Notes under the pieces: generated by a model
The model's database searches: none
What the model saw: only the letters and a program-made list of their open reading frames with translations
Told to the model about the DNA's origin: nothing
Shown here: piece by piece, positions 4,467-54,217 of the stretch
How the letters are laid out: every line of letters starts with the position of its first letter
Position numbering within the stretch: position 1 is the stretch's first letter
Position numbers and translations under genes: made by a program
Source: an uncultured Latescibacterota bacterium
GTDB lineage: Bacteria > Latescibacterota > UBA2968
DNA length: 64,000 bases
Direction: 5' to 3'
NCBI GenBank assembly: GCA_951812755.1
Contig: OX638329.1
Span: 729,339 to 793,338 of the forward strand

Positions 4467-5939
<1,473 letters not shown>

Positions 5940-6224
5940 GGCGGGAACTCCTTTTTGAAGTGTGATCCGCAGATGAACGCAGATGAAATGAATGTAGGGG
6001 CGAGGCATGCCTCGCCCGATTGGGTGAGAACATTTCGCCCGTCGTATTTTTCCCACGATTAGACCCACGACCCCGTCCGATGGTTCCGAAAATCGGAGGC
6101 AAACCCCCAGACTGGACCCCGTATAGAATCACTACGGGGTGACAATTGTCATCGCGGCATGGTTTAAGCCGCGATCCAGAGGTTTTGGTTTTTAATTCTT
6201 AATTCTTAATTCCTAATTGCTTCT
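5940..6224. repeat. Intergenic repeat cluster
   Basis: This gap holds no gene. It contains the phrase GATCCGCAGATG plus a GTAGGGGC palindrome with core GAGGCATGCCTC (5994-6019), a CCCCGTATAGAATCACTACGGGG-type palindrome near 6117-6140 and one GCGGC-stem repeat (about 6149-6190), ending in an AT-rich TTAATTC run. Confidence 0.75.
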
Positions 6225-34096: not shown

Positions 34097-34108
34097 TTCG
34101 CCGATGGA

Positions 34109-34140
34109 TCGGGAAGTTTCCCAGATGAGGCTTCCCGATT
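34109..34140 (+). terminator. Intergenic hairpin between secreted genes 1 and 2
   Basis: ATCGGGAAG (34109-34117) pairs perfectly with CTTCCCGAT (34132-34140). No T run follows, so it may attenuate or stabilise the mRNA rather than fully terminate it. Confidence 0.45.
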
Positions 34141-34164
34141 CCATTTTCAATAGAGGAGTTTGTA

Positions 34165-37100: not shown

Positions 37101-40100
37101 TTCTGCGACTGTGATGGCGAGTGGTCAAGCCGAGGGTGCAGAGGTCGTGTTCGCCCTGGAGGAAGGTTCCGAAGGTGCGACGTTAGACGGTGCAACGGTG
37201 ACCGCGACTGGCGCAGGCACAGCGATGGTGACGGCGTGGGTTGGTGATGTTGGATCCAATGCTGTTACGATTGAGTTTGCGCAAGGTGCGCTTATGCTGG
37301 CTGGAGATACTAAGGCATATATTCCTTATGGTGGCAGTGCGTCTGCGATGTTGACCGCAAGTGGTCAGGCCGATGGCGCAGAGGTCGCGTTTGACGTGCA
37401 AGGTGAAGGCGTGATGTCTGAGTCTGATGGTGCGACCGTGACGGTGTCCGCAAGTGCGGCTACCACAGCGATGGTGACGGCATCAGTTGGTGATGTTATG
37501 TCCGAAACTGTTGAAGTTGCCTTTATGGATGCGCCGCCTGAACTGCGCACAGATACGCCCACAGTGACGTTTGATGATTTTGGTGCCACGGCTTCAGCGT
37601 CTGTAACAGCTGTCGGTTTTCCCGAAGGTGCCACTATCATGTTTAGGATTACAGGTGGTGCCGGATTTGCAACGGCAGATGGTGCTGCAACCTGGACGGT
37701 ATCGACGGATAAGGCCGGTGTTGTGACGTTGGAGGCCACCGATGGTACGAGTACGACTGCTGAACTGGAGATTACGTTTTTGAATCCAGCTCCTTATCTG
37801 ACGGCGGATAACAGTGATGTTATTATTCCGGAAGGTGGAGATGTGACGGTAACAGTTACAGCGACTGGTCTGGGTGATGATATTGATTGGACAGTCAGCG
37901 AAGTAACCGGCACAGCTACGGTTAATAGTAGTACGGATGGTGCAACGGCGACGCTGAACGCGATGGATTCTGATGATTTATCCCAGACATCCACAATGAC
38001 GTTGACCGCCACCGATGGTACGCTTACGACCGCTCCGCTTACTATTACCTTCAGGAAGATGCCCGAGGTTGCAACAGATATGCCTGAGGTCGAAGTTCCT
38101 CAGACTACGGTTGGCAATAATTCGTCAATGGTCGTGGCAAATGGCTTTCCTCCCGATGCTGAGATTACGTTCAATGTCGAGGTGACGAGTGGAGAAAGTT
38201 ATGTTTCGCATTCGTCAGATGGCAATGTGCTGACGGTGACGGCTACTGGTACGGCTACTGTGAGTGTGACTGCTACTGGTGGAGGCGTTACGACGTCTGC
38301 GGTTGAGGTTACGTTTACGCAGGCATTACCCGCTGCTCCTGCGAGTGTGGTTGTGCAGGATCAGGAAGGGGATAACGGCCATTATGTGATGGTGAGTTTT
38401 GCCAATTCGGCAAATCACGCTGATGTGAGTCAGTATCGCGTTTATCGCGAGATGATGGTGAATACCACGATGGATGCCGGCGGCAAGGTGGTGGTAAGCG
38501 ATGAGCCGGTGGCAAAGTGGGTTCCCTGGGCTGTTGTCGATGCGATGGACAATGATGAAGAAGAAGGTATGACGCGCGCGGTTGTTCCGGTGACGGATGC
38601 AACGGCGACTCGCTGGGGCGTTGCTGCCGAGAAGGGTATGTCTTCGGTAGAGATTACGCCTTCTGCTGGCAAGCGCGTGTTCTCCAAGGAGAGCGTGCAG
38701 GCGATCGTTCAGCTTTTGGGTGTTGATCCCAATCTGGTTGTGACCGAGGATGCGCTCAGCAAGATGTTTATGCCTTCTGCTGATTATATTAATTCGATTA
38801 TTGGCGGCAGGAAGAATGTGGTGTTTGCCGCTCTGGATCCCGATTTGAGTGTTCTCATTGGTGGCGACCTGTCTGTTCCGCAGAATATCCGCACGGATGG
38901 ATATGGTCCTATTGTTTCGTCTCCAATTACGGCGACGGACGGTATGGTGGGTGCAGTAGATGATACAGCCCCTGCTGCTGCGACCGAGCTTGCTGCTGAT
39001 GTGGAGACCGGGATGGTTACCTGGACGGCGTCCGCCGATGATGGTGGCATGGATGCTGTGATGTATCGCGGTCACGCGATTATGATTCCGCATGTGACGG
39101 GCTATATCATCCGGGGTGGTGCCAGCGAAGATGCGATGATCGATATCGGCGATGCTCCCGCTGGTTCGACCAGTTTCCAGGTTCCGCAGGCTTTGATTGA
39201 GTCTCTGATTAATCAGGGTTTGCCCGCGGTGCTGGTAACCGTGACGGCGATGGACGGAACCAATATGACGTCGAGTGTGCCTCTGGTGGTTGAGCTTATC
39301 CCGACGCGCAAGGCGTTTGCGGATGCAGACGGTGGTCCTGTTTATATCGTCAGGCTCCCCAGGCACGGGGATACTATGACGCCGCTGACGGTTGACTTTG
39401 AAGACTTTGTGGCCTTTACGATGGCGTTTAATACCGATGAGACGCACGAGAACTGGAGAGTCTTTGTTCAGGCTGACCTGAATGACGATAAGATGGTCAA
39501 TTTCGATGACTTTATTCTGTTCTTTAGCTCTTATGGTAAGGAAGCGCAAGGTCCGGCTGGCAAGTCTCTCATTCCGCCTCCTGGCGTGAATGAGACTGCC
39601 GAGTTGTCGTTGCGTTTGGGCAGTGATCGCGTGGTGGCTGGCGAGACGATGTTTGTGGATGTGTCTCTGGCCAATGTGCAGGCTCTGATGGGTTATGGGT
39701 TTGTGCTTCACTACGATGCCGAGAAGTTCGAGTTTGTAGAAGCGATGCCGGCTGCTGAGGATTTGCTTATGTCTTCAGGTGGTGAGACCCCGCTGTTGAG
39801 GGGTTGGGCACCTGAGGCCGGGCAGGTTCACGTTATGAATGCGATCGTGAATGGTTCGGAGGTTTCCGGCGGTGGCGATATTGTTCGGTTGGTGTTCCGC
39901 GTGTTGCGCGATTTTGAAGATAATGCGCGGTTTGAGATTGCCGAGGGTCTGGTTTTCGATCCGAGTCAACTCGCCAATCCATTGGCTGGCGGTGTGCTGG
40001 ATATTCAGACGACGCCTACAGAGTTTGCACTGCTCCAGAATTTCCCCAATCCGTTTAACCCCGACACAACGATCGGGTATGAATTGGCCGAGTCCGCCGA

Positions 40101-40299
40101 TGTGACGCTCCAGATTTACAATGTGGTGGGTCAGGTCGTTCGGACGCTTATGGCTGCTGAATCGCAGTCGGTCGGCCGTTATCAGGTCCGTTGGGACGGT
40201 ATGGATGATCGCGGAGTGCCGGTTTCGAGTGGGATTTATTTCTACCAGATTTCGGCAGGGAAGTTCCAGGATGTGCGGAAGCTGATGCTGCTCAAGTAA
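34165..40299 (+). CDS. Giant secreted Ig-repeat protein with cohesin-like and dockerin-like domains
   Basis: A 2044-residue exported protein. ATG 34165 follows GAGGAG; a signal peptide (LLFMTALALLMFAGQASA) is visible. Order: cohesin-like domain (about 26-150), PVDPP linker (about 153-178), second cohesin-like domain (about 180-300), then 13 or so Ig-like repeats of about 80-90 residues (GGSASATLTASGQAEGAEV type) to about 1385. FN3-like segments follow (about 1390-1700), then a dockerin-like module (about 1715-1795: VDFEDFVAFTMAFN, ADLNDDKMVNFDDFILFFSSYG), a cohesin-like domain (about 1809-1950) and the type A sorting domain (NFPNPFNPDTTIGYEL to KLMLLK). No catalytic motif is seen. A surface scaffold or adhesin is the likely role (inference). 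Confidence 0.85.
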   Translation: MFLKKSLLFMTALALLMFAGQASAQLSLSLGEGGSATVEGEGTEITVDVSQMGVAQSVNAIQVVFDINTDVVTLTGGTAGSFIAFPVVGGNTASFGSITGAMPVPASASFTFTTASDVTGVEFSIGISSVSLDGNALPVPAPAALVFNASDTEPPVDPPVDPPVDPPVDPPVDPPVPSDMVVSLTSGGETIVRDIGAGAEITVDVVVGGMEESFGAEIEFASDAAMITAVNEGEGLHKVEMDGLKLTILGAPAGGNYGSVVFTTGADYDGSEFSISVTTFNVLTREGRKAVSGGSLTVNKPLPTLMGPEGDVMIMPGGSASAMVTAAGFDGDVMLDGAAEDGTVTATEPGEVTVTATDGIDPATASVTITFVLGPLTAEGPAEAVMVAPGGSASATLTASGQAEGAEVAFRLEEGSDEGATLDGATVSASGPATAMVTAWVGEVGSEPISIEFVWGPLTLSADATEVAIGADGGMATVTASGQAEGADVVFAGEGVTENEDGTSATVSASVAGTSTVTASVGDVMSDAVEISFVTSLATDMTEVTIPRDGPAMATITAYGFPADADINFIVTAGTDVVSSDDGSTLTLTKSAPGEVTVVATDGTNTTASLSIAFVPTPPELVSDAADNMATIPVGGSAMVVITALDFGEGISYQTQVTEGVATVDTQRDGANLMLTVSGTGSATVAVTADDGTNTATIAIGFTAGELTLTAAKSEVMVPVGGTGSTTVTASGQADGAEVAFAVDGEGVTSESDGATVTLSASGAATASVTASVGDVSATTTVEFVDGALTLALAEGSAAENTVLPGGSASATVALMNLAEGDEASFEVVGEGVEHSIEGVTVTLTASGAGSATVSAMVNGLTTGSVTVEFVLGELTLALAEGSEAENTVLPGGSASATVMASGQAEGAEVVFALEEGSEGATLDGATVSATGAGTAMVTAWVGDVGSNVVTIAFEQGALTLALAEGSEAENTVLPGGSASATVMASGQAEGAEVVFALEEGSEGATLDGATVTATGAGTAMVTAWVGDVGSNAVTIEFAQGALMLAGDTKAYIPYGGSASAMLTASGQADGAEVAFDVQGEGVMSESDGATVTVSASAATTAMVTASVGDVMSETVEVAFMDAPPELRTDTPTVTFDDFGATASASVTAVGFPEGATIMFRITGGAGFATADGAATWTVSTDKAGVVTLEATDGTSTTAELEITFLNPAPYLTADNSDVIIPEGGDVTVTVTATGLGDDIDWTVSEVTGTATVNSSTDGATATLNAMDSDDLSQTSTMTLTATDGTLTTAPLTITFRKMPEVATDMPEVEVPQTTVGNNSSMVVANGFPPDAEITFNVEVTSGESYVSHSSDGNVLTVTATGTATVSVTATGGGVTTSAVEVTFTQALPAAPASVVVQDQEGDNGHYVMVSFANSANHADVSQYRVYREMMVNTTMDAGGKVVVSDEPVAKWVPWAVVDAMDNDEEEGMTRAVVPVTDATATRWGVAAEKGMSSVEITPSAGKRVFSKESVQAIVQLLGVDPNLVVTEDALSKMFMPSADYINSIIGGRKNVVFAALDPDLSVLIGGDLSVPQNIRTDGYGPIVSSPITATDGMVGAVDDTAPAAATELAADVETGMVTWTASADDGGMDAVMYRGHAIMIPHVTGYIIRGGASEDAMIDIGDAPAGSTSFQVPQALIESLINQGLPAVLVTVTAMDGTNMTSSVPLVVELIPTRKAFADADGGPVYIVRLPRHGDTMTPLTVDFEDFVAFTMAFNTDETHENWRVFVQADLNDDKMVNFDDFILFFSSYGKEAQGPAGKSLIPPPGVNETAELSLRLGSDRVVAGETMFVDVSLANVQALMGYGFVLHYDAEKFEFVEAMPAAEDLLMSSGGETPLLRGWAPEAGQVHVMNAIVNGSEVSGGGDIVRLVFRVLRDFEDNARFEIAEGLVFDPSQLANPLAGGVLDIQTTPTEFALLQNFPNPFNPDTTIGYELAESADVTLQIYNVVGQVVRTLMAAESQSVGRYQVRWDGMDDRGVPVSSGIYFYQISAGKFQDVRKLMLLK
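34629..34690. repeat. 12-bp tandem repeat encoding PVDP linker
   Basis: Five copies of CCAGTTGATCCG encode the repeated PVDP linker between the two N-terminal cohesin-like domains. Confidence 0.9.
36787..37290. repeat. Two nearly identical 252-bp Ig-domain units
   Basis: Units starting at 36787 and 37039 are almost the same over 252 bp (84 codons, LTLALAEGSEAENTVLPGGS onward). Other Ig units in the gene are much more diverged, so this pair is a recent duplication. Confidence 0.85.
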
Positions 40300-40306
40300 T
40301 TCGTTT

Positions 40307-40337
<31 letters not shown>

Positions 40338-40389
40338 TATTTCCCCTCAGAACTTACAAGGAGTAGTTTTCAGCGAAGGAGTTTTGCAA

Positions 40390-42474
40390 ATGTTGATTAA
40401 AAAAGGATTGTTATTTTTTACTGCCCTTGCGTTTCTGGCGTTTGCGGGTCAGGCTTCTGCTGGTCCCAATGCAAATGCGACGGTGACGATTGATCTGGTT
40501 GCCGATGGCGGGGCAGGCAATCAGATGGATGAAGGTGTTCATTCGGGTAATGTCTCCGGAGAGGGCGCGAAAATTGTGGTTGAGGTTTTCGCCAAGGGCG
40601 TGACCACGGCGCTGATTGGCGTGAAGATTGAGTTTGATTTTAAAGCTGAAGAATTAAAGCTCGATAAGGTCGAGAATAGTGCGTTTCTGTTTGCTATTCC
40701 CGAAGCCACGGGCGTAAATTTTGCAGCTACTGCGCCTGTCACCCTGCCCGAGTCTGGTTTTATCGGACGCGCCGAGTTTTCTACCGTTGCGGATCTTACG
40801 GATAAGGAATTTTACCTGGGCATTAAGAGCGTGACGCTTGCTGAAAGTGCAGCGTCGAGCGATGTTATCGCGCCGGAAATGATGGCGATGATGAGTACGA
40901 TCAATTTTAATGTCAAGCCCAGGCTGGAGGCAGATGAAACTGTGATCCCGGTGCCGCCAGGTAGTACGGGTACGGCGACGGTGACGGCGGTGAATTTTGC
41001 TGCGGATGCGATGATTACGTTTGAAGTGCAGGGCGAAATGCTCGATAACGTTATGAGCGCGCCAGAGGGTGCCAAATTGACGCTGACGGCGAGTGGTCCG
41101 GCAAAGGTGACGGTGACGGCGAGTGATGGTATGGCTACGACCGATCCGATTACGATTGAGTTTGTCGAGATGAGGATTCCCGCGCTGGATATCGCAGGCA
41201 TGGACATGATGAATATGATGGATGATGGCATGCTCGCGGGCAGTGCTGGTGCCAATGAAGAGATTGCTATTGAGGTGTTTGCAGGTGATGTAGATGGCGG
41301 TCTCGGTGGTGCGAGTATTGTGTTTGTGATTAAGCCGGATGAATCGGCGATGGTTGAGCCATCTGCGGCGGCAATGATCACGGGTTTTGAGCCTGCTGAG
41401 GGTCTGACGCTGCTGGGTATTTCCGGTAATCAGGTCGATATTGGTGCCGAAGAAGCGGTGATGCTGTCCAATGGTGGTTTTTTGGGTACGCTGAAGCTGA
41501 TGACGGGTGCCGAGGCTGTGCCGTTTTCGGTTGGGGTTGAGTCGTTTAGAGGCGTTCTCGCTTCCGGCGAAGAGACGATGCTGATGATTCCCGCACCGGT
41601 GATGTACAATTTCGGTCCGCGGCTGGAGGTGTCTGCGCATATTGCGACGATTCCGCGCGGTGGTGAAGCGACGATTAAAATTACTGCGCTGGGTTTTGCC
41701 GAGAGTTCGAAGATTACCTTTTCGCATACTGTAGAAGGCGCGGCGATGGTCGATGGTCACCCGGAAATGGATATGCTCAATGTCTATACGTTGACCGCGA
41801 CTGGTTTGGGTTCCGCTGTTGTGAAGGTGACGGCTTCCGATGGCATGGCTTCTGAGGAAGTGACTGTTCAGTTTGACGAGCAGGTGCCGATTGAGTTGTC
41901 GTCTTTTGTCGGATCCGTGATCGAAAATCGCGTGGTGCTGAACTGGGCGACGGCTTCGCAGACCAATAATGCGGGTTTCCGCGTGCTTCGCAGCACGGAT
42001 GGTGAGACCTACGAGGTGGTCAGCGCGCTCATAGCAGGTGCTGGTACGACCGATCAGTTGATGGATTATGTGTTTGAGGATACGAGCCTTCCCGCTGTTG
42101 AGAAGGTTTATTATCTGCTCGAGCAAATTGATCTGGATGGGACGATTAATCGTTCGAATCCGATTGAGGTGCTGCTGGGCGCGCGTTTCACTCTGCCCAC
42201 AGAATTTGCTTCGACGGTTTATCCCAATCCGTTTAACCCGAGAACGACGATTTCCTACGAATTGCCCGCTGACACAGATGTGTCTATCGTGATTTACGAT
42301 GCGATTGGGCAGGAGATTCGCCAACTCGTGAGCCGGCATTATACAGCAGGTCGTTATAGTGTCCAGTGGGATGCTAAGGATCATCTGGGCCGCAGTGTTG
42401 GTAGTGGCGTTTATATCGCCGAGATTGTGGCGGGTTCAAATACCGCGATCCAGAAGATGTTGCTGTTGAAGTAG
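40390..42474 (+). CDS. Secreted protein with two cohesin-like domains and T9SS-type sorting domain
   Basis: A 694-residue exported protein. ATG 40390 follows GAAGGAG; the upstream open frame is repeat-derived. A signal peptide (LLFFTALAFLAFAGQASA) nearly matches that of the preceding protein. Cohesin-like domains (about 28-180 and 260-410) each carry the IGVKIEFDF/GGASIVFVI type strand and alternate with Ig-like units (about 180-255 and 415-500). The C-terminal part has the sequence PIELSSFVGSVIENRVVLNW common before type A sorting domains, then YPNPFNPRTTISYELP to KMLLLK. There is no dockerin-like module here, so it could offer cohesins to the dockerins of its two neighbours (inference). The stop TAG is part of a palindromic repeat. 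Confidence 0.85.
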   Translation: MLIKKGLLFFTALAFLAFAGQASAGPNANATVTIDLVADGGAGNQMDEGVHSGNVSGEGAKIVVEVFAKGVTTALIGVKIEFDFKAEELKLDKVENSAFLFAIPEATGVNFAATAPVTLPESGFIGRAEFSTVADLTDKEFYLGIKSVTLAESAASSDVIAPEMMAMMSTINFNVKPRLEADETVIPVPPGSTGTATVTAVNFAADAMITFEVQGEMLDNVMSAPEGAKLTLTASGPAKVTVTASDGMATTDPITIEFVEMRIPALDIAGMDMMNMMDDGMLAGSAGANEEIAIEVFAGDVDGGLGGASIVFVIKPDESAMVEPSAAAMITGFEPAEGLTLLGISGNQVDIGAEEAVMLSNGGFLGTLKLMTGAEAVPFSVGVESFRGVLASGEETMLMIPAPVMYNFGPRLEVSAHIATIPRGGEATIKITALGFAESSKITFSHTVEGAAMVDGHPEMDMLNVYTLTATGLGSAVVKVTASDGMASEEVTVQFDEQVPIELSSFVGSVIENRVVLNWATASQTNNAGFRVLRSTDGETYEVVSALIAGAGTTDQLMDYVFEDTSLPAVEKVYYLLEQIDLDGTINRSNPIEVLLGARFTLPTEFASTVYPNPFNPRTTISYELPADTDVSIVIYDAIGQEIRQLVSRHYTAGRYSVQWDAKDHLGRSVGSGVYIAEIVAGSNTAIQKMLLLK

Positions 42475-45225: not shown

Positions 45226-45440
45226 GTTGTAGGGGCGAGGCATGCCTCGCCCGTCATCGCGGCAATGTGTAAGCCGCGATCCAGAAGGTTTTGCTTTTGA
45301 TTTTGCTGTTGTTTGTGAATTTGTTTGTCATCGCGGCAATGTGTAAGCCGCGATCCAGAAGGTTTTGCTTTTGATTTTGCTGTTGTTTGTGAATTTGTTT
45401 GTCATCGCGGCAATGTGTAAGCCGCGATCCAGAAGGTTTT
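45226..45440. repeat. Palindrome plus three GCGGC-stem repeats with 76-bp period
   Basis: One GTAGGGGC palindrome (core GAGGCATGCCTC) is followed by three near-identical units GTCATCGCGGCAATGTG to AAGCCGCGATCCAGAAGG with identical TTTTGCTTTTGATTTTGC connectors. Confidence 0.9.
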
Positions 45441-45620
45441 TTCGAGGTTTCAGATCTATCAGGGTATGAAGATCGGTCCAGATGGATAGGGGCGACCACT
45501 GCAGGTCGGGTGTTAGTTGTGGTCTATTCTGACGAAGATGTACCTCTGCTTCGTTTGATCACCGCATTTGATGCTATAGGGAGTTTGCGCGATGAATACT
45601 ACAGAAGACGTGGAATTTGA
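45441..45620 (+). pseudogene. C-terminal fragment resembling a BrnT-like (DUF497) toxin
   Basis: The frame reads GYEDRSRWIGATTAGRVLVV, then VYSDEDVPLLRLITAFDA and DEYYRRRGI, close to the second half of BrnT-type toxins (GRSRRGRLLVV, IRIISARRA). The first half is missing and replaced by a GCGGC-stem repeat, so it is not expected to be functional. The fragment overlaps the start of the TPR gene by 29 bases, where an antitoxin gene would normally begin. Confidence 0.45.
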
Positions 45621-46185
45621 TCATGAAACTTATATGAATGAAATTTCATTAGATTCAGTCAAAATTTATCATGGAAAAGATGCGCGTGAAAAACGGCGAA
45701 AGGTCACTATGCGTGCCATGACCTATTTTAATCGCGGTTCTGCTTATAGTATCGCAGATGCCTATGATTGTGCTATTGCAGAGTACTGCAAGGCGATAGA
45801 CTTGCAACCCAATTACATTGCGGCCTATAAGAGTCGCGCCATTGCGTACGTCAGAAAAGGTGCGTATGACTGTGCTATTGTGGACTTTGACAAAGTGATC
45901 TCGCTGAGGCCAGATGATGCCCTGACTTATTTCAGTCGCGGCATGGCTTATTTAAACAAAGACAAGATTGACCGTGCTATTGAGGATCTGACCAGAGCCA
46001 TAGAACTTGATCCAGAACTTGCCGTGGTCTATTTTGTTCGGGCCAATGCTTACAAAAAAAAAGGCATATATAACCGTTCTATCGCAGACTACAACAGAGC
46101 GATAGAACTGAACCCAGACTATGCCGATGCCTATAATAGTCGCAGCCATGTTGAAGCCATAGGTGAACATCCCGACAGGAGGTGA
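45592..46185 (+). CDS. TPR-repeat protein upstream of ARC
   Basis: A 197-residue cytoplasmic protein. ATG 45592 follows AGGGAG. The N-terminal 45 residues are charged, without repeats; then four to five TPR units (YFNRGSAYSIADAYDCAIAEY, YKSRAIAYVRKGAYDCAIVD, YFSRGMAYLNKDKIDRAIED, YFVRANAYKKKGIYNRSIAD). Such proteins serve as protein-protein adapters. It ends directly before the ARC gene, and its last codons hold an AGGAGG site. It may be co-transcribed with the proteasome genes; a role in that system is only an inference from position. Confidence 0.75.
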   Translation: MNTTEDVEFDHETYMNEISLDSVKIYHGKDAREKRRKVTMRAMTYFNRGSAYSIADAYDCAIAEYCKAIDLQPNYIAAYKSRAIAYVRKGAYDCAIVDFDKVISLRPDDALTYFSRGMAYLNKDKIDRAIEDLTRAIELDPELAVVYFVRANAYKKKGIYNRSIADYNRAIELNPDYADAYNSRSHVEAIGEHPDRR

Positions 46186-46248
46186 GCCATCAATACCAAC
46201 GATTCTGATCGTCAGAGAAAGTCACCTGAAGATTTTCTTCAGGATTAT

Positions 46249-47895
46249 GTGGATATGCAGCATACGTTTCAGTCGCTGTCCATTATCGATCAAATTTTGA
46301 TGACGATGGATGAGACAGACCGACGGCGACCCCTGTTGTACCAGTTGCGCCGGCAGCTTCAGGAAGATGAGATTACTTTTGAGGAGGCGAGGCGCACGAT
46401 TGTGGAGTTGGAAGGGGCGCTGGAGAAGGTGACGGCTCCGGCCAATCGCGTGGGTACGTTGTTGGCGCCGCCAGAGAATGGTGTGGTGTATATTACGGTG
46501 GGGGGGGCGGAGTATTATGCCAATGTGGATGCGCGGTTGGATGATCGCAGTTTGAAGGTGGGTACGCGGGTGCTTGTCAATGAGGCATTTGCCGTGGTGG
46601 GCGAGATGGGCGAGTCTCCGTCGGGTACTGTGGGTAAAATTGTCGATGTGCTGGACGATGGGCGTTTGCAGGTGGGGCAAGAACACGGCTCGCAGACGCA
46701 TATTCTCCTGCGGGGGGCAGATCTGGTGCGCGAGTCTTTGAAGGCGGGCGAGGAGGTGCGTATCGATCCCCTTTTTCGCGTGGCGCTGGAGAAGATGCCG
46801 CATTCCGAGGTTAAGGATTTTTATCTGGAGGAAGTTCCCGATTTGCCGTGGGAAATGATCGGTGGGCAAAAAGATGCGATTCAGGCGATCAAAGATACGA
46901 TTGAGATGCCGGTGTTGCATCCGGAGTTGTTTCAGCGGTTTCACTACAGTACGCCCAAGGGGTTTTTGTTATATGGTCCGCCGGGATGTGGCAAGACGCT
47001 GATTGGGAAGGCGACGGCGTATAATCTGGAGAAGCAGGTGCAGGAAGACGGACTGAATCTCAAGGCGTGTTTTATGCATATTAAGGGTCCCGAGATTTTG
47101 AATATGTGGTTGGGAGAGTCGGAGCGCAAGGTGCGCGAGATTTTTTCTCAGGCGCGCGAGAAGCGACGCGAGGGGTTTTTGCCGGTGGTGTTTATCGACG
47201 AGGCAGAGTCGGTTTTGGGTACGCGGCGGGCGATTCGGTCGCACAATATTTCAAATACGGTTGTGCCGATGTTCTGTTCCGAGATGGACGGGATCGAGTC
47301 ACTGCAAGATGTGGTGATTATTTTGACGTCCAATCGTCCAGATTTGATCGATCCGGCGATTTTGCGTCCGGGGCGTATCGATCGCAAAATTAAGGTTCTT
47401 CGTCCGGATGAGGATGCGGCGCGCGAGATTTTGGGTATTTATTTGACGGCTGATTTGCCGCTGTCAGAGGCTGAGTTAAATGCGCAGGATGGCAATGCGC
47501 GAGCAGCGGTTGACGATCTGGTGGCGCGTGCGATTGCCGAGATATATGCGAGGCGCGACGATACGCGCTTTTTGGAGGTGACGCTTAGGAGCGGTCGAAA
47601 GGATGTGTTGACCCGCGGAGATCTGTGCAGTGGGGCAATTCTCGAGTCTATTGTGCAGCGCGCGAAGGAGATTGCGATTAAGCGGTGTATTGCTTCTGGC
47701 GCAGAAGATGGGATTGGTTTTGACGATTTGCTCGCGGGGATCGAGATGGAGTATAGCGAAAATGAGATTTTCCCGCCGACGGATAATACAGAGGATTGGT
47801 TGAAGTTGCTGGATTACGATCCGGAAAATGTGGTGCGCGCAGCACCGATTCGCCCCAGGCGAGAGCGCCGCACCTCCGGGCATGGCGTTGTGTGA
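46249..47895 (+). CDS. arc: Proteasome-associated AAA+ ATPase ARC/Mpa
   Basis: The ring-shaped unfoldase that recognises pupylated proteins through an N-terminal coiled coil and feeds them into the 20S core. The 548 residues include coiled coil (about 20-65), OB domains (about 70-190) and the AAA+ module with Walker A GPPGCGKT near 243, Walker B FIDEAES near 317 and the SNRPDLIDPAILRPGRID region. The C-terminus (RRERRTSGHGVV) lacks the GQYL-type ending that docks actinobacterial Mpa on the core. The start is uncertain: GTG 46249 or ATG 46255 have no good ribosome binding site, while a strong AGGAGG at 46178-46183 precedes an in-frame ATC at 46189 that would add 20 residues (INTNDSDRQRKSPEDFLQDY). 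Confidence 0.93.
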   Translation: MDMQHTFQSLSIIDQILMTMDETDRRRPLLYQLRRQLQEDEITFEEARRTIVELEGALEKVTAPANRVGTLLAPPENGVVYITVGGAEYYANVDARLDDRSLKVGTRVLVNEAFAVVGEMGESPSGTVGKIVDVLDDGRLQVGQEHGSQTHILLRGADLVRESLKAGEEVRIDPLFRVALEKMPHSEVKDFYLEEVPDLPWEMIGGQKDAIQAIKDTIEMPVLHPELFQRFHYSTPKGFLLYGPPGCGKTLIGKATAYNLEKQVQEDGLNLKACFMHIKGPEILNMWLGESERKVREIFSQAREKRREGFLPVVFIDEAESVLGTRRAIRSHNISNTVVPMFCSEMDGIESLQDVVIILTSNRPDLIDPAILRPGRIDRKIKVLRPDEDAAREILGIYLTADLPLSEAELNAQDGNARAAVDDLVARAIAEIYARRDDTRFLEVTLRSGRKDVLTRGDLCSGAILESIVQRAKEIAIKRCIASGAEDGIGFDDLLAGIEMEYSENEIFPPTDNTEDWLKLLDYDPENVVRAAPIRPRRERRTSGHGVV

Positions 47896-47933
47896 TCCGC
47901 AGATGGCCGCAGATGGCCGCAGATGGAACACAA

Positions 47934-48224
47934 TTGTAGGGGCGGGTTCCCGTATAGAATCATTACGGGACAGACCCCGTGCCCGCCCGTCATTGCGGCA
48001 TGGTTAAAGCCGCAATCCAGAAGGTTTTGTCATTTGGCCGCAGATGGTCGTGGATGGAACAATTGTAGGGACTGGCGTTGGCCGTCATTGCGGCATGGTT
48101 AAAGCCGCAATCCAGAAGGTTTTGTCATTTGGCCGCAGATGGTCGTGGATGGAACAATTGTAGGGACTGGCGTTGGCCGTCATTGCGGCATGGTTAAAGC
48201 CGCAATCCAGAAGGTTTTTTGTCA
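47934..48224. repeat. Nested palindrome and three direct repeats upstream of dop
   Basis: A GTAGGGGCGGGTTCCCGTA element has a CCCGTATAGAATCATTACGG palindrome embedded in it. Three copies of a GCGGC-stem repeat (ATTGCGGC/GCCGCAAT form) follow with the shared connector TTTGGCCGCAGATGGTCG in a period of about 98 bp. No gene lies in the 350-bp gap between arc and dop. Confidence 0.9.
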
Positions 48225-48245
48225 TTACTGGCGTTGTGAGATAAT

Positions 48246-49769
48246 ATGACGCGCTTATTCGGGTTGGAAACGGAATACGGGATCACGATTGACGGGGTGG
48301 ATAGGGTCGATGTGGTGGAGGAGTCGATGCAGTTGATCCGCTGCTATCAGCAAGGGACTTTTGTTCCGTTGTGGGACTATCGATTGGAAAATCCCCGTCG
48401 GGATGAGCGGGGGTTTGAAGTTAAAAATCTGTTGAATGATGCCGATGAAAAGGTGCATTTGCAACAGGATCGCAAGCGGAAAATTCCGTTTGTGGAATTG
48501 AAGAGCGATTTGATTATTTACAATGGGTCCCGGTTTTATAACGATCATACGCATCCGGAGTATTCCACGGGTGAGTGCGTGAGTTTGTTCGAGCTTGTGG
48601 CACAGGATAAGGCGGGGGAGCGCATTGTCGATATTTGCGCGCAGCGGCGAACGGAGGTGCTGGATCAGGGCACTGTGCGGATGTATAAGAACAATACGGA
48701 TTTTGAAGGGCATAGCTATGGGTGTCACGAGAATTATTTGATGGATCGTTCGGTGCCTTTCGAGCGTATATTGGAGGGGTTGTTGCTGTTTTTTCCCACG
48801 CGGCAGATTTTTTGCGGGGCTGGCAAGGTGGGTGTTGAGCGGGAGGATCGGGCGCCGATTTATCAGTTGTCGCAACGCGCGGAGTTTTTTGAGGTGATCG
48901 CGAGTGTGGATACGATGCACAAGCGTCCGGTTGTGAATACGCGCGATGAACCCCACGCAGATGCAGCGCGTTATCGCCGGTTGCATGTGATTGTGGGCGA
49001 TGCCAATATGTCGGAGTATATGACGGCGCTTAAGGTGGGGACAACGGCGCTGGTGATCGATTTGATTGAGGCGGATTGTTTGCCCGATTATCGGTTGAAG
49101 GATCCGATTGCGGCGATGAAGAATATCGCTCGCGATCAGTCGCATGCGTGGTTGGTGGAGGTGGAGGGTCCGGGCAGTCGCCTCGTTCCCGCGGTTGAAA
49201 TTCAGGATGCGTTTTTGGGTTTGGCGCGGCGCGAGTTTGCCGGGCGCGATCAGGAGACGGATTGGGTGTTGTCGGCGTGGGAAGATGTGCTGGGGAAATT
49301 GAGCCGCGATCCGATGGATCTGGTGGGTGTGTGCGATTGGGTGACGAAGAAGTGGCTGATCGATAGTTTTTGCGAGGCGGAGAATCTGGCGTGGGATAAT
49401 CCCGATGATTTGTTCTGGATGCAGAGCCAGGATCTGGAATATAGCAATGTGGATCGGAATGAGGGTTTGTATTATTTGATGGAGTCACAGGGGCAGATGG
49501 TGCGTCTGGTGGGCGATGATGAGGTGGCTGCGGCGATGTCGGAACCGCCTTCGGGTACGCGGGCGTATTTTCGAGGGCGCTGTTTGGAGAAGTTTGGCGA
49601 TTATGTGTCGTCGATTAATTGGGATCGCATTGTGTTTAAGCGCAATGGCCGGCAGCATGCGGTGGATATGAAATTATTGGTGGATAAAGAGCGGGTAGCG
49701 CGTTATAATGAGGTACTTGATCAATCCGATACACTGGAGAGTTTTCTGGCTGCGCTGGAGAAAGTGTGA
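48246..49769 (+). CDS. dop: Pup deamidase/depupylase Dop
   Basis: A glutamine-synthetase-fold enzyme that removes Pup from substrates and, in other bacteria, deamidates Pup-Gln to Pup-Glu. The 507 residues begin LFGLETEYGITIDG with the nucleotide-binding acidic strand. A long loop before FYNDHTHPEYSTGEC (catalytic Asp) and SYGCHENYLM, plus NTRDEPHADAARYRRLHVI, support Dop rather than PafA. The position normally YVDHAHPEYS reads YNDHTHPEYS. Because Pup here already ends in Glu, only the depupylase activity would be needed (inference). It starts just after a repeat and has no strong ribosome binding site. Confidence 0.93.
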   Translation: MTRLFGLETEYGITIDGVDRVDVVEESMQLIRCYQQGTFVPLWDYRLENPRRDERGFEVKNLLNDADEKVHLQQDRKRKIPFVELKSDLIIYNGSRFYNDHTHPEYSTGECVSLFELVAQDKAGERIVDICAQRRTEVLDQGTVRMYKNNTDFEGHSYGCHENYLMDRSVPFERILEGLLLFFPTRQIFCGAGKVGVEREDRAPIYQLSQRAEFFEVIASVDTMHKRPVVNTRDEPHADAARYRRLHVIVGDANMSEYMTALKVGTTALVIDLIEADCLPDYRLKDPIAAMKNIARDQSHAWLVEVEGPGSRLVPAVEIQDAFLGLARREFAGRDQETDWVLSAWEDVLGKLSRDPMDLVGVCDWVTKKWLIDSFCEAENLAWDNPDDLFWMQSQDLEYSNVDRNEGLYYLMESQGQMVRLVGDDEVAAAMSEPPSGTRAYFRGRCLEKFGDYVSSINWDRIVFKRNGRQHAVDMKLLVDKERVARYNEVLDQSDTLESFLAALEKV

Positions 49770-49821
49770 TCCGCAGATGGGCGCAGATGGGCGCAGATAA
49801 AAAAGAGAGGCTGTGAAGGGT

Positions 49822-50027
49822 GTAGGGGCGAGGCATGCCTCGCCCGTCATCGCGGCAATGTGTAAGCCGCGATCCAGAAGGTTTTGCAGTTGTTTTTGCT
49901 GTTGATTGTGCTTTTGCCCGTCATCGCGGCAATGTGTAAGCCGCGATCCAGAGGTTTAGCTTTTGTTTATGAATTTGCCCGTCATCGTGGCAATGTGTAA
50001 GCCGCGATCCAGAGGTTTTGCTGTTGG
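49822..50027. repeat. Palindrome plus three GCGGC-stem repeats before the Pup gene
   Basis: One GTAGGGGC palindrome (core GAGGCATGCCTC) and stem repeats at about 49845, 49918 and 49979, then ATCCTGCACATCCTATAATC. No gene lies in 49770-50109. Confidence 0.9.
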
Positions 50028-50109
50028 TTTTGATTTTGTTTTTCATCCTGCACATCCTATAATCTTGTAAATCCTGATTCTGATGGTTTTTTCATTAAGG
50101 AGGCCGTAT

Positions 50110-50301
50110 ATGGATAAGGTCTTACAGTTTGAGCGACGGACGAAGCCGGTCGACCCGGGAGGACCCGGTCCGGGCGATGATGGCGATGGTGGTCCTGCAC
50201 GCCCGAAGGTGGAGCGGCCAGATACACGCGATTTGATGCGGCGCATGCGGCGCGTTGATCCCAACCAGGCGCGGCGTTATCGCCAGCGTACAGGCGAGTA
50301 G
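50110..50301 (+). CDS. Prokaryotic ubiquitin-like protein Pup, UBact form
   Basis: The 63-residue degradation tag. ATG 50110 follows AAGGAGG. The N-terminal half is low-complexity (KPVDPGGPGPGDDGDGGPA). The C-terminal half (RPDTRDLMRRMRRVDPNQA, then RRYRQRTGE) is the segment that becomes helical on ARC. It ends RTGE, not GGQ: the terminal Glu is ready for isopeptide linkage without deamidation, as in the UBact proteins of Gram-negative candidate phyla. prcB starts three bases after its stop. It is intrinsically disordered by composition. Confidence 0.93.
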   Translation: MDKVLQFERRTKPVDPGGPGPGDDGDGGPARPKVERPDTRDLMRRMRRVDPNQARRYRQRTGE

Positions 50302-50304
50302 ATT

Positions 50305-51108
50305 ATGCAATCGGGTGGGGATTTTGTCGATTTGCTGCGGCAAACGGGCTACCGGTTTCCGGGTGAGAATTTGGGCGATGTACAGTCCGAGCGCGATTTG
50401 CCTTTTGAGCCGACGGATGCGACGACGATTCTGGCATTTCAATATGCCGATGGCGTGCTCGTTGCAGGTGATCGCCGCGCCACTGCGGGCAATATGGTGC
50501 TTTATGACCGCGCGGATAAGGTGGTTGATCTGGATGCGTTTTCGGTGATGGCGATTTCGGGGTCACCTTCTATTGCGTTTGAGATCGCGCGCATTCTGGA
50601 GCATGCGTTTCAGTATTATCGCCGTCGGTTGCTTCAGGAGATGAGTTTGCAGGCGAAGTTGCGCCGGTTGTCGCTGTTGATTAAGGATAATTTGCCGTTG
50701 GCGATGCAGGGTATTGGTGCTGTGATTCCCATTTTTGCGACGTATGATCGGGTGGATGCGCGGGGCAAAATTTATTTTTACGATGCGCTGGGGGCGCAGT
50801 TTGAGAGTGCCGATTTTACGACGACGGGGTCTGGGTCGCCGGCGATTCGCGGGGCGATGTATTATTTGAATCGCTGGGGCGGTCGGCGGTTTGTGGAGAT
50901 GGATCGCGATGCGGCAATCGGGCACGCGCTTCAGCTTCTGGATACGGCGTCGGAATACGATTCGGCGACGGGGCGATACGAGCGTTCGGCTGATATTTTT
51001 CCGTCGGTGAAGACGATTACGGCGTCGGGTCTGGCGGAGATTGAGACCGAGGCGTTGCGGGAGCTTTATGTTCAATATGTGGATGGGGAGGAGGCGGGAC
51101 GCGCATGA
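50305..51108 (+). CDS. prcB: 20S proteasome beta subunit
   Basis: The catalytic subunit of the core particle, 267 residues. A 39-residue propeptide precedes the cleavage point in TDA/TTILAF, giving Thr40 as N-terminal nucleophile. Relative to that Thr, Asp17 (VLVAGDRRA) and Lys33 (RADKVV) are in the correct places, and GSGSPAIRG matches the conserved Ser region. ATG 50305 lies three bases after the Pup stop, and the gene overlaps prcA by ATGA, so Pup, PrcB and PrcA are translationally linked. Confidence 0.96.
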   Translation: MQSGGDFVDLLRQTGYRFPGENLGDVQSERDLPFEPTDATTILAFQYADGVLVAGDRRATAGNMVLYDRADKVVDLDAFSVMAISGSPSIAFEIARILEHAFQYYRRRLLQEMSLQAKLRRLSLLIKDNLPLAMQGIGAVIPIFATYDRVDARGKIYFYDALGAQFESADFTTTGSGSPAIRGAMYYLNRWGGRRFVEMDRDAAIGHALQLLDTASEYDSATGRYERSADIFPSVKTITASGLAEIETEALRELYVQYVDGEEAGRA

Positions 51109-51908
51109 TGTTGTCAGATGAGCCGTATCGCTGGGCAGAGGCTGTTGCGAATCGGCGCGATTATATCGAAGATCAGATTCGGGCGGGGAGTCCGGTTGTG
51201 GGTGTGGGATACGAGGATGGGATTTTGTTGCTGACGCTGTCACAGAACCAGCAAAAGGTGTTTGAGGTGTACGATCGCATCACGCTCGCGGGAATTGGGC
51301 ATTCAACGGATATCGAGAAGCTCAGGCAGGCTGCGATTGATATGGCGCATTCGATTGGGTTTAATTATTCCGAGGACGATGTGACGCTGCGTCAAATTGT
51401 GTATTTTGGTCTCGGTCCTGCGATAAAGGCGGGGTTCGACGATGTGGTGCATTCTCCGTTTTTGGCGCGGGTGCTTCTCGCGGAGCTGGACGGGCAGGAG
51501 GGGGCGCAGGTTTTTTATTCTGTGGATTACGATGGTGCGTTTCACCGTCACGAGGGATGGGCTGTTGTGGGCGGCGTTGCAGAGGCGGATGTGATGATGG
51601 GGCGCGAGTTGTCGGGTCTGGATACGGGCGCGTTGTCTTTGTCGGATGCCGCGGGTGCTGCGCTGCGCGCCTGGGCAATGGGACGATGGGTTGGGAAGAT
51701 GGATGAGGTGCCCACCGATGCAGAGCAGCTCGAGCATAAGGCAGGGGAAGTCGATGTGGCTGATGTGCTTGAGACGGAGTTGAAGGACATGGAGGTGGAG
51801 GCGGTGGTGCTCGGGCGGTCGCAGTTGGGAAAAAACAAGTACCGCAATGTCGATGCAGAAGAGATTGCGCCCGCTTTGGCAAAGTTTAAAGAAACGGATA
51901 AGACGTGA
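51105..51908 (+). CDS. prcA: 20S proteasome alpha subunit
   Basis: The outer-ring structural subunit, 267 residues. It has the alpha-type N-terminus (PYRWAEAVANRRDYIEDQIR) that gates the pore and the NTN-fold strands (PVVGVGYEDGILLLTLS, YDRITLAGIGHSTDIEKLRQ), without a catalytic Thr. A C-terminal extension rich in Glu, Asp and Lys ends KFKETDKT. It overlaps prcB by four bases. PafA follows after a 110-bp gap holding one repeat. Confidence 0.95.
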   Translation: MMLSDEPYRWAEAVANRRDYIEDQIRAGSPVVGVGYEDGILLLTLSQNQQKVFEVYDRITLAGIGHSTDIEKLRQAAIDMAHSIGFNYSEDDVTLRQIVYFGLGPAIKAGFDDVVHSPFLARVLLAELDGQEGAQVFYSVDYDGAFHRHEGWAVVGGVAEADVMMGRELSGLDTGALSLSDAAGAALRAWAMGRWVGKMDEVPTDAEQLEHKAGEVDVADVLETELKDMEVEAVVLGRSQLGKNKYRNVDAEEIAPALAKFKETDKT

Positions 51909-51926
51909 GACGGAGGGAAAACCAGC

Positions 51927-51962
51927 CGTCATTGCGGCAGGGTTTAAGCCGCAATCCAGGGA
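51927..51962. repeat. GCGGC-stem repeat between prcA and pafA
   Basis: One copy in the ATTGCGGC/GCCGCAAT form, with TTTAA between arms. It is the only repeat inside the Pup-prcB-prcA-pafA run. Confidence 0.8.
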
Positions 51963-52019
51963 GGGGGTTGGGGGTCGTCTTACCTTTTAGGTCTTACTTC
52001 TCACCGATTGAGAGGCCCC

Positions 52020-53477
52020 ATGAGAGATCGCATTTTTGGCATAGAAACCGAATATGGGTGTTTGGCTCCCGAGCACGAGGGTTTTGTGAGTCCCGATACG
52101 ATTTCGGTGAAGGTGAAGGATCACATTTTTCACGTTGACCGAATGGGGATTGTGGATATTCACTATCGCGGACGGGATGAACCCCCGGGCAATGGGGGTT
52201 TTTTGTTTAATGCGGGGCGGGTTTATATCGATATGGGGCATCTGGAATACGCCACGCCGGAGTGTATGGGGTTGTGGGATATTGTGGCGTTTGATCGGGC
52301 GGGTGATCTCATTTTGTATCGGGCATTGCACGCGCTGGGGTTGGCGAAAGAAGCTTCGTTTTTGAAGAATAATATCGATCATTATACGGGTGCGACATTT
52401 GGCTGTCATGAAAATTATCTGGTCAGACGCAATGTGCCGTTTTCAACGGTTGTCATTCCCGCGCTGTTGCCGTTTTTGGTGACGCGCCAGATTTTTTGCG
52501 GTGCAGGTCGCGTGGGCAGTTATGACGACAGTTTTTATTATTATGGGCAAAATGTGCGAGATGCCGCCGATCCAGAGGATTCTGTCTCTTTCCAGATTTC
52601 TCAGCGTGCCGATCATATTGTGACAGAGATTTATCAGTGGATTCAGTTTTCGCGCGCGATTATCAATACGCGAGATGAGCCGCTGGCCGATCACAGCAAA
52701 TACCGCCGTTTGCACCTTCTGGTGGGCGATTCAAATATGTCGGAGTATGCGACGGCTCTGAAGGTTGGCACGACTGCGATGGTGCTAAATCTTCTGGAGC
52801 GCAAAATTTTTCCCCAGGATATGGGGGTGGGCGATCCGGTGTGGGCACTGAAGGAGATTTCGCGGGATCCAACACATAAGTGGATTTTGGATCGGCAGAA
52901 TGGGCGGTCTATTTCGGCTATTGATATACAGCGCAATTATTTGGATTTGGCGCAGCGCCACTTGAGAGGTCTGGATGAGGAGTCAGATTGGGTGCTGGAT
53001 GAGTGGGAGCGCACGCTTGATGATCTGGCGTCCGATCCGATGCAGTTGACAGATCGCGTAGATTGGGTGGCTAAGAAGTGGTTGTTGGATGCGTTTCGCG
53101 AGTCGGAGAATTTGAGTTGGAACGATCCGTGGTTGCAGAGTTTGGATCTGGAGTATCACAATATCGATCCCAATCGCGGGTTGTATTTTGACCTGGAGCA
53201 GCAGGGTAAGATGCAGCGGGTGCTGACGGATGAGCGCATTGAACAGGCTTGTGTGATGCCTCCGGCTGATACGCGGGCAAAGGCGCGTGCGGCGATGGTG
53301 AAGACGCTGTCGAAAAATCGGGTGCGGTATATTGTGGATTGGGATTCGGTGTATTTGGAAAATGAATTCCATTTGAGTTTCCGCGATCCGTTTGATACGT
53401 ACGACGATGAGGCGAAGGCGTTTGCCGAGGAGGTCGAGATCGCGTCGAAGATGATGGGGTTGAGAAGGGGGAAGTGA
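52020..53477 (+). CDS. pafA: Pup ligase PafA
   Basis: Attaches the C-terminal Glu of Pup to substrate lysines using ATP. The 485-residue glutamine-synthetase-fold protein starts MRDRIFGIETEYG at ATG 52020 behind GAGAGG. The catalytic Asp region reads VYIDMGHLEYATPEC, with changes around the usual GSHPEYA. TFGCHENYLVRRN and NTRDEPLADHSKYRRLHLL are conserved. The small C-terminal domain that binds Pup (LSFRDPFDTYDDEAKAFAE) matches PafA and is absent from Dop, which separates the two paralogues. A clear terminator follows at 53562. Confidence 0.93.
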   Translation: MRDRIFGIETEYGCLAPEHEGFVSPDTISVKVKDHIFHVDRMGIVDIHYRGRDEPPGNGGFLFNAGRVYIDMGHLEYATPECMGLWDIVAFDRAGDLILYRALHALGLAKEASFLKNNIDHYTGATFGCHENYLVRRNVPFSTVVIPALLPFLVTRQIFCGAGRVGSYDDSFYYYGQNVRDAADPEDSVSFQISQRADHIVTEIYQWIQFSRAIINTRDEPLADHSKYRRLHLLVGDSNMSEYATALKVGTTAMVLNLLERKIFPQDMGVGDPVWALKEISRDPTHKWILDRQNGRSISAIDIQRNYLDLAQRHLRGLDEESDWVLDEWERTLDDLASDPMQLTDRVDWVAKKWLLDAFRESENLSWNDPWLQSLDLEYHNIDPNRGLYFDLEQQGKMQRVLTDERIEQACVMPPADTRAKARAAMVKTLSKNRVRYIVDWDSVYLENEFHLSFRDPFDTYDDEAKAFAEEVEIASKMMGLRRGK

Positions 53478-53485
53478 GAAGGATT

Positions 53486-53513
53486 GTAGGGGCGAAAGAT
53501 TTTTCGCCCCTAC
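53486..53513. repeat. GTAGGGGC palindrome after pafA
   Basis: A full copy with both outer arms (GTAGGGGCGAAAGA, then TTTTTCGCCCCTAC). It lies between the pafA stop and its terminator. Confidence 0.9.
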
Positions 53514-53561
53514 TTGCCAACATCGGAACGGCAATAAATGCAAATTAGGAATTAAAACCTC

Positions 53562-53592
53562 AAAAGCCGTCCACACAGTGGTCGGCTTTTTT
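53562..53592 (+). terminator. Rho-independent terminator after pafA
   Basis: AAAAGCCG and CCAC on the left pair with GTGG and CGGCTTTT on the right, with one T-T mismatch and a three-base loop, followed by TT. It closes the proteasome locus. Confidence 0.88.
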
Positions 53593-53674
53593 ATGTACGC
53601 GACAAGCACCCTTATCCCGCTTTTTGGTTTTGGTTTTGATTTTAATTCTTAATTTTTAATTCTTAATTTTTAAT

Positions 53675-54217
53675 TCATCTCCTGCTTCTCCCGCCGCGGC
53701 GTCCAGAGTAGTGGCGAGAGCTCATGGGCAGGTACGCGCGGGCGTTTTTTTGACTGGCGCGGTCGAGTTTGGTATAGTCGAGGATTTTGTAGCGTTTGCG
53801 CGTTATGGCGTCGGTGAATACGATTTCGGGAAATGCGTTGAGGTTGAGGTTCTGATCGCCGCGGAGTGTGAAGCTCATAGGTCCCGCGTTGGTGTCGATG
53901 TCCCAGTTTGTGCCGCCTTCTTTGTTGCTTTCGATGTTGAGTATGGTCTGGATTTGGGGGATGTCGTAGCGGTTTTTGAGGTGTTCTTCAACGAGTGCCC
54001 GCGATTGTGTGTTTAACCCGTCAAGTGTGGATAAGAGGCCGAGTTCGGTTCCGTCCCGGTCGCGGAGGCTAATCCATTGTTCGGGCGTGGAAAAGGGGAA
54101 ACATCGCACGATGTGATCGATGGCCAGTTCTTCTCCGTCGGCAAAAAGGAGCAGACCATCGCCGTTTTGACGTATGTCAATGGTTTCGGGGATGAGTTGT
54201 TGTATCATGAGGTCCAT
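53675..54217 (-). CDS. DUF1854 family protein
   Basis: The 180-residue protein starts at ATG 54217 (MDLMIQQLIPETIDIRQ), directly after the stop of the ABC transporter (TGACATG), so translation is coupled. It contains HIVRCFPFSTPEQWISLRDR and VEEHLKNRYDIPQIQTIL, typical of DUF1854. In several bacteria, DUF1854 proteins accompany ABC transporters in cyanophycin-linked loci (family knowledge); no cyanophycin gene is present here. The Arg-rich C-terminus (GRRGGRSRR) is unusual. It is probably a partner or regulator of the exporter. Confidence 0.8.
   Translation of the reverse strand: MDLMIQQLIPETIDIRQNGDGLLLFADGEELAIDHIVRCFPFSTPEQWISLRDRDGTELGLLSTLDGLNTQSRALVEEHLKNRYDIPQIQTILNIESNKEGGTNWDIDTNAGPMSFTLRGDQNLNLNAFPEIVFTDAITRKRYKILDYTKLDRASQKNARAYLPMSSRHYSGRRGGRSRR

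Follow-up and report, generated by a model that had tools for sequence, protein, structure and literature searches.

The window, i.e., the whole stretch of 64,000 nucleotides analysed here, carries an intact Pup-proteasome operon of the UBact type, which probably works as proposed below, with an AUC start codon for arc and a docking tail of the Arc ATPase that lacks tyrosine. The six genes arc, dop, pup, prcB, prcA and pafA, identified from open reading frames and family models, are all present on the + strand in that order, and both Pfam and NCBIfam recognise all six products. The sequence-only reading had called the locus complete, UBact-type and oriented in a single direction with a terminator after pafA. 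The gene content, the family models and the aligned catalytic residues confirm the first two points, and the genes at 46189-53477 and the well-folding terminator at 53562-53590 confirm the others; the span 46178-53592 then extends from the arc Shine-Dalgarno to just beyond the terminator. The latter (+ strand) is an intrinsic terminator with a 12-bp stem, one internal mismatch and a T-run, whose fold (-17.8 kcal/mol, z = -4.0) was equalled by none of 200 shuffles. A simple terminator scan found 12 candidates against 10.1 expected from shuffles, and this terminator was absent from its list. A promoter scan, left out of all conclusions, found 12 candidates against 7.9 expected (sd 2.4), and no Rfam element was detected in 45400-54200 at gathering thresholds.

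Arc, Dop, PafA, PrcA and PrcB match the right NCBIfam models, all with scores below the cut-offs; this is expected, because the cut-offs were set for actinobacterial proteins and the members found here are divergent. The arc gene (46189-47895, +, 568 aa if the start is ATC) encodes a proteasomal AAA+ ATPase homologous to Mpa/ARC, with an AAA domain and both OB domains (pup_AAA 473 bits), whose best PDB relatives are Mpa 5kwa and 7px9. It has the AAA module, the double OB ring and, in a medium-confidence model, the N-terminal helical coil of actinobacterial-type Mpa/ARC. The dop gene (48246-49769, +, 507 aa) encodes the depupylase, which is a deamidase where Pup ends in Gln, and pafA (52020-53477, +, 485 aa) the Pup ligase; these are the only two Pup_ligase genes of the host genome and both lie inside the operon. 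Dop matches Pup_ligase with 508 bits and the Dop model with 451 bits, as compared to 343 bits for the PafA model. For PafA, the two models are close (379 bits with the PafA model, 367 with the Dop model), and in the PDB comparison the protein scores higher against Dop structures than against the PafA structure. At the level of sequence, the feature that tells Dop from PafA where overall similarity fails is the Dop-loop, an insertion before the catalytic Asp that is present in Dop and absent from PafA. Alignment to solved structures shows that the catalytic residues E8/E10/D100 of Dop and E9/E11/D71 of PafA are conserved, D71 being aligned with the Asp that is Asn in 4bjr. The same alignment finds T40, D56 and K72 of PrcB conserved (T1, D17 and K33 of the mature chain). 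The beta subunit gene prcB (50305-51108, +) codes for 267 aa including a 39-aa propeptide followed by the catalytic Thr40, and overlaps by 4 nt with the alpha subunit gene prcA (51105-51908, +, 267 aa), whose pocket lysine, Lys51, is conserved and kept in 71/71 PrcA tested. Overall, both 20S subunits and an ARC-type ATPase share the cluster with the tag, the Pup ligase and Dop. The mycobacterial Pup-proteasome has the same six components (Mpa, Dop, Pup, PrcB, PrcA and PafA) and the same catalytic residues, and the PrcB propeptide with its N-terminal Thr and the alpha-pocket Lys are also common to both.

In the pathway that we propose, PafA would act on Pup directly, phosphorylating the Glu with which it already ends and then joining it to target lysines; Dop would take Pup off again, its deamidase role being dispensable in this species. 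The N-terminal helices of Arc would capture Pup, and Arc would unfold the tagged protein and feed it into the PrcA/PrcB 20S core.

The start of arc is unusual. On the 5′ side, TGA 46183-46185 bounds the reading frame of arc two codons before ATC 46189, and no ATG, GTG, TTG or CTG occurs in frame between this stop and GTG 46249. ATC 46189 (46189-46191, +) is the only near-cognate codon available and lies three bases 3′ of the Shine-Dalgarno AGGAGGTGA (46177-46185, +), of which the TGA, the stop codon of an upstream TPR open reading frame, is itself a part. Comparison with related loci points to this codon as the non-canonical start: at this position, 19 of 20 loci, from eight genera in three families, have ATC or ATT and one (L089) has ATG, and a strong Shine-Dalgarno precedes the codon in most of them, although the surrounding sequence is not conserved. 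The 13 codons R to D before the first conserved ATG, compared in ten representatives, differ 78/27/350 times by codon position, as compared to 191/172/160 in the stretch upstream of the ATC; for these 13 codons, the synonymous pairs number 297 and the nonsynonymous ones 81, and each of the 7 invariant residues is encoded by more than one codon, with the provision that the 20 loci are related and the substitution counts not independent. These data show that the 5′ segment of arc, upstream of every canonical start, evolves as coding sequence.

A conventional start at GTG 46249 or ATG 46255, with the conserved upstream sequence being something else, is therefore hard to reconcile with this pattern, and we consider it improbable. 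These are indeed the first canonical in-frame codons of arc, and a weak AGGA lies four bases before GTG 46249. However, the stretch upstream of this GTG evolves as protein, the GTG itself is replaced by GTC or CAG in loci L074, L076, L071 and L063, and the strong Shine-Dalgarno precedes the ATC even in loci with an in-frame stop two codons ahead of it. Moreover, a start at either codon would cut mid-way a helix predicted by AlphaFold2 at Arc residues 13-39, which spans both alternative starts (mean pLDDT 69.6, helix blocks 47-83). GTG 46249 is thus probably not the real start, and arc most likely starts, as judged from these comparisons, at ATC 46189. The stop two codons before the ATC is found in six loci of the window's genus, where no canonical start is compatible with the conserved Arc N terminus, and two further loci have no ATG, GTG or TTG upstream as far as the stop. 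Roughly half of the loci in the wider set carry a GTG in frame within the Shine-Dalgarno, three codons before the ATC/ATT; it is an unlikely start, because its own Shine-Dalgarno would overlap it. In L085 a GTG lies one codon before the ATT, while in L087 the GTG was lost and the ATC kept. The AUY start is hence nearly forced in the window's genus, but not so where a GTG stands at -3 or -1. The unusual start codon is well supported, and the Arc N termini annotated in these genomes are likely wrong. Next to arc, a TPR protein gene is found at 45592-46185; this neighbour is common to L098 and absent beside arc in other relatives.

Arc would accordingly be translated from AUC, or AUU in some relatives, behind a strong Shine-Dalgarno. 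The infC gene is known to start with ATT or ATC; initiation factor IF3 represses such a start in E. coli infC, as it represses the GTC start of Streptomyces sigR (PMC5472188). In the host genome infC starts GGAGGTGGTCACA-ATC-AAT, with the same ATC AAT as arc. The pattern GGAGGTGN3-6ATYAA has six matches in this genome, but a gene begins at the ATY codon in just two of them, arc and infC; of the other four, one lies inside a longer frame (80 codons open upstream) and three open 8, 10 and 31 codons. Like infC and sigR, arc combines a near-cognate codon with a strong Shine-Dalgarno and conservation; it differs from them in that its product is a proteasomal ATPase and that its regulation by IF3 is predicted only. 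From its AUC/AUU start, IF3 would be expected to keep Arc synthesis low, by analogy with these genes. A search for literature on AUC as a noncanonical start under IF3 returned nothing. The arc gene offers a test case for whether non-canonical starts regulate genes beyond infC and a few others.

The C-terminus of Arc (...RRERRTSGHGVV, 47860-47892, +) appears to depart from the actinobacterial rule. In mycobacteria, Mpa can bind the core and open it only with a C-terminal GQYL, of which Tyr is the penultimate residue (PMC12288473; PMC8755798). This feature of actinobacterial-type Mpa/ARC is missing from the Arc found here, which ends without a GQYL/HbYX motif. A set of 67 Arcs from Latescibacterota, Nitrospirota and Armatimonadota has no aromatic residue at the penultimate position (0/67), which is occupied by V (37), I (29) or A (1), and the last residue is I (45), V (18) or E (4). 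Some tails read GQII or GQVI and look like GQYL with the Tyr replaced. A Nitrospirota subgroup (L214, L216, L218 and L221) has Arc tails ending in IE instead of V/I-I/V. The most economical reading of these tails is that the tyrosine-free V/I-I/V end would dock in the lysine pockets of the alpha ring in place of GQYL.

The absence of GQYL could also mean that Pup conjugation is mainly non-proteolytic, or that the 20S core is opened by an activator other than Arc, and 13 of 20 Armatimonadota UBact loci have no arc within about 5 kb. Nevertheless, every intact locus of Latescibacterota and Nitrospirota encodes Arc, Pup, PrcB and PrcA in a single operon, and the tail keeps its hydrophobic end behind a variable linker, with the alpha-pocket Lys also kept; we regard both variants of this alternative as unlikely. 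Docking by a tyrosine-free tail is the reading we retain, and the Arc tail offers a concrete test of the rule that proteasomal ATPases need a penultimate tyrosine. The wider proposition, namely that Arc translation is under IF3 control through AUC/AUU across the window's order and that UBact ATPases open the 20S gate with a tyrosine-free tail, is put forward only tentatively, as a reading somewhat less likely than not; if true, targeted protein degradation would be tied to the state of translation initiation. As for the arc-less Armatimonadota loci (L223, L225, L227, L228, L230, L232, L234-L239 and L242), dop, pup and prcB are present in all 13, and several are also devoid of detectable prcA or pafA nearby.

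The tag gene pup (50110-50301, +) encodes 63 aa and belongs to the UBact family, with 68 bits against a cut-off of 27.8 for PF20513 (E=4e-19) and 78.7 bits against 35 for NF033388 (E=3e-22); a phmmer comparison with the PDB matched no Pup. Its C-terminus is ...YRQRTGE. The claim that a tag ending in RTGE needs no deamidation by Dop is borne out for this species, in which the Glu is encoded, in place of the Gln of mycobacterial Pup. The same ending had been read as a sign of the UBact type: the encoded Glu stands, its diagnostic value does not. At least 9 switches between E and Q are needed to explain the endings on a PafA tree of 68 genomes, and RTGE was rejected as a UBact marker. In the sister family f4 of the same class, most genomes have RTGQ and two RTGE, and both endings are also found in Nitrospirota and Armatimonadota. 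The E/Q end of Pup is thereby unfit as a lineage marker; that the tag can end in G[EQ] was already noted in 2008 (PMC2588565). The catalytic residues of Dop are retained in Glu-ending lineages, which fits depupylation as the task for which Dop would have been kept there.

The tag differs from that of M. tuberculosis also in its charge, which for the final 28 residues ranges from +3 to +7 among the UBact of all three phyla and is -8 in M. tuberculosis Pup. The sequence of the latter was checked against PDB entries. Prolines occur in the UBact region corresponding to the long helix of M. tuberculosis Pup. Given this basic C-terminal half, the tag-holding surfaces of PafA, Dop and Arc would be expected to have changed to match; PMC12053664 gives no Pup-groove residues usable for a charge-complementarity test.

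Further UBact or UBact-like genes were seen in two genomes. In L063 (G018), a second UBact-like gene ending in RQRDGGVN, not GE/GQ, lies between pup and prcB (7469-7588); it may act as a decoy, be made as a precursor that must first be trimmed, or be a copy in decay. In the same locus, a DNA methyltransferase-like gene, named from its translation (5202-6509), followed by another open reading frame, separates dop from pup. An orphan UBact gene with an RTGE end, L090 4792-5025 (G026, contig 146), lies away from the operon beside a sigma-factor-like gene, on a contig which may be foreign to its bin.

The host, whose genome is a single contig of 6.53 Mb, had been taken for a non-actinobacterial organism with type IX secretion (T9SS) sorting domains. 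This view holds: the host belongs to the Latescibacterota, and the T9SS view is sound because its genome encodes the translocon protein SprA (>600 bits) and three secreted proteins of the window (29555-42474) carry TIGR04183 sorting domains above the cut-off, although Pfam FlgD_ig outscores TIGR04183 over the same region.

In a survey of genomes that are mostly MAGs, PafA/Dop were found in 47/47 genomes of the host's class and UBact in 45/47, while 17 genomes from the rest of the phylum yielded neither; UBact was also present in 104/296 Nitrospirota and 167/291 Armatimonadota genomes. The order arc-dop-pup-prcB-prcA-pafA is common to 20/20 Nitrospirota loci examined and to those Latescibacterota loci that no contig end interrupts, and pafA is the final gene of every intact locus. 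In a Dop/PafA tree built by a quick method, with 2 Dop and 1 PafA as the actinobacterial sampling, Latescibacterota Dop (support 100) and PafA (98) each form a single clade, Nitrospirota adjoins Latescibacterota PafA (96), and the actinobacterial sequences sit on long separate branches, so Dop and PafA are not nested inside Actinomycetota. Although a published analysis has pupylation arise in Actinobacteria and then spread outward (PMC7947786), a recent acquisition of the six genes from Actinomycetota is highly improbable in view of their presence, in the same order, throughout the genomes surveyed from the class and of the separate clades, with Nitrospirota adjacent and the actinobacterial sequences far off, and the tree lends such a gain no support; an ancient transfer is possible. 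In some non-actinobacterial phyla, Pup-proteasomes are stable machinery of whole clades, not sporadic acquisitions.

The machinery itself is plain UBact, a kind that is known and not rare. The sequence-only reading described such loci as known from several candidate phyla but rarely studied; they are common across whole clades, as in the 47/47 genomes of the class. In 2017, Lehmann and colleagues reportedly described UBact from Nitrospirae and Armatimonadetes as well as from candidate phyla, Latescibacteria among them. With known UBact systems the locus shares a tag over both curated cut-offs, the RTG/RSG-E/Q end and, with Nitrospirota, the gene order, and the core machinery shows no difference. 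The ATC/ATT start of arc was observed only in the window's order and the sister family f3, with none seen in the readable Arcs of f4, Nitrospirota and Armatimonadota. This start, the tyrosine-free Arc tail and the basic half of the tag were absent from the literature searched, which was mostly non-subscription and excludes the original UBact report, and their novelty is provisional.

Finally, the gaps between arc and dop and between dop and pup are filled by an interspersed repeat, AAGCCGCRATCCAGA (47987-48218, 49842-50015 and about 51925-51960). The host genome (G000) has 81 copies, dense around 0.70-0.85 Mb, and their orientation depends on the region of the genome. Dividing it into two arcs at 0.25 and 4.7 Mb accounts for 55 of 59 clusters, while the best of 200 shuffles reached 47, which suggests replichore polarity.
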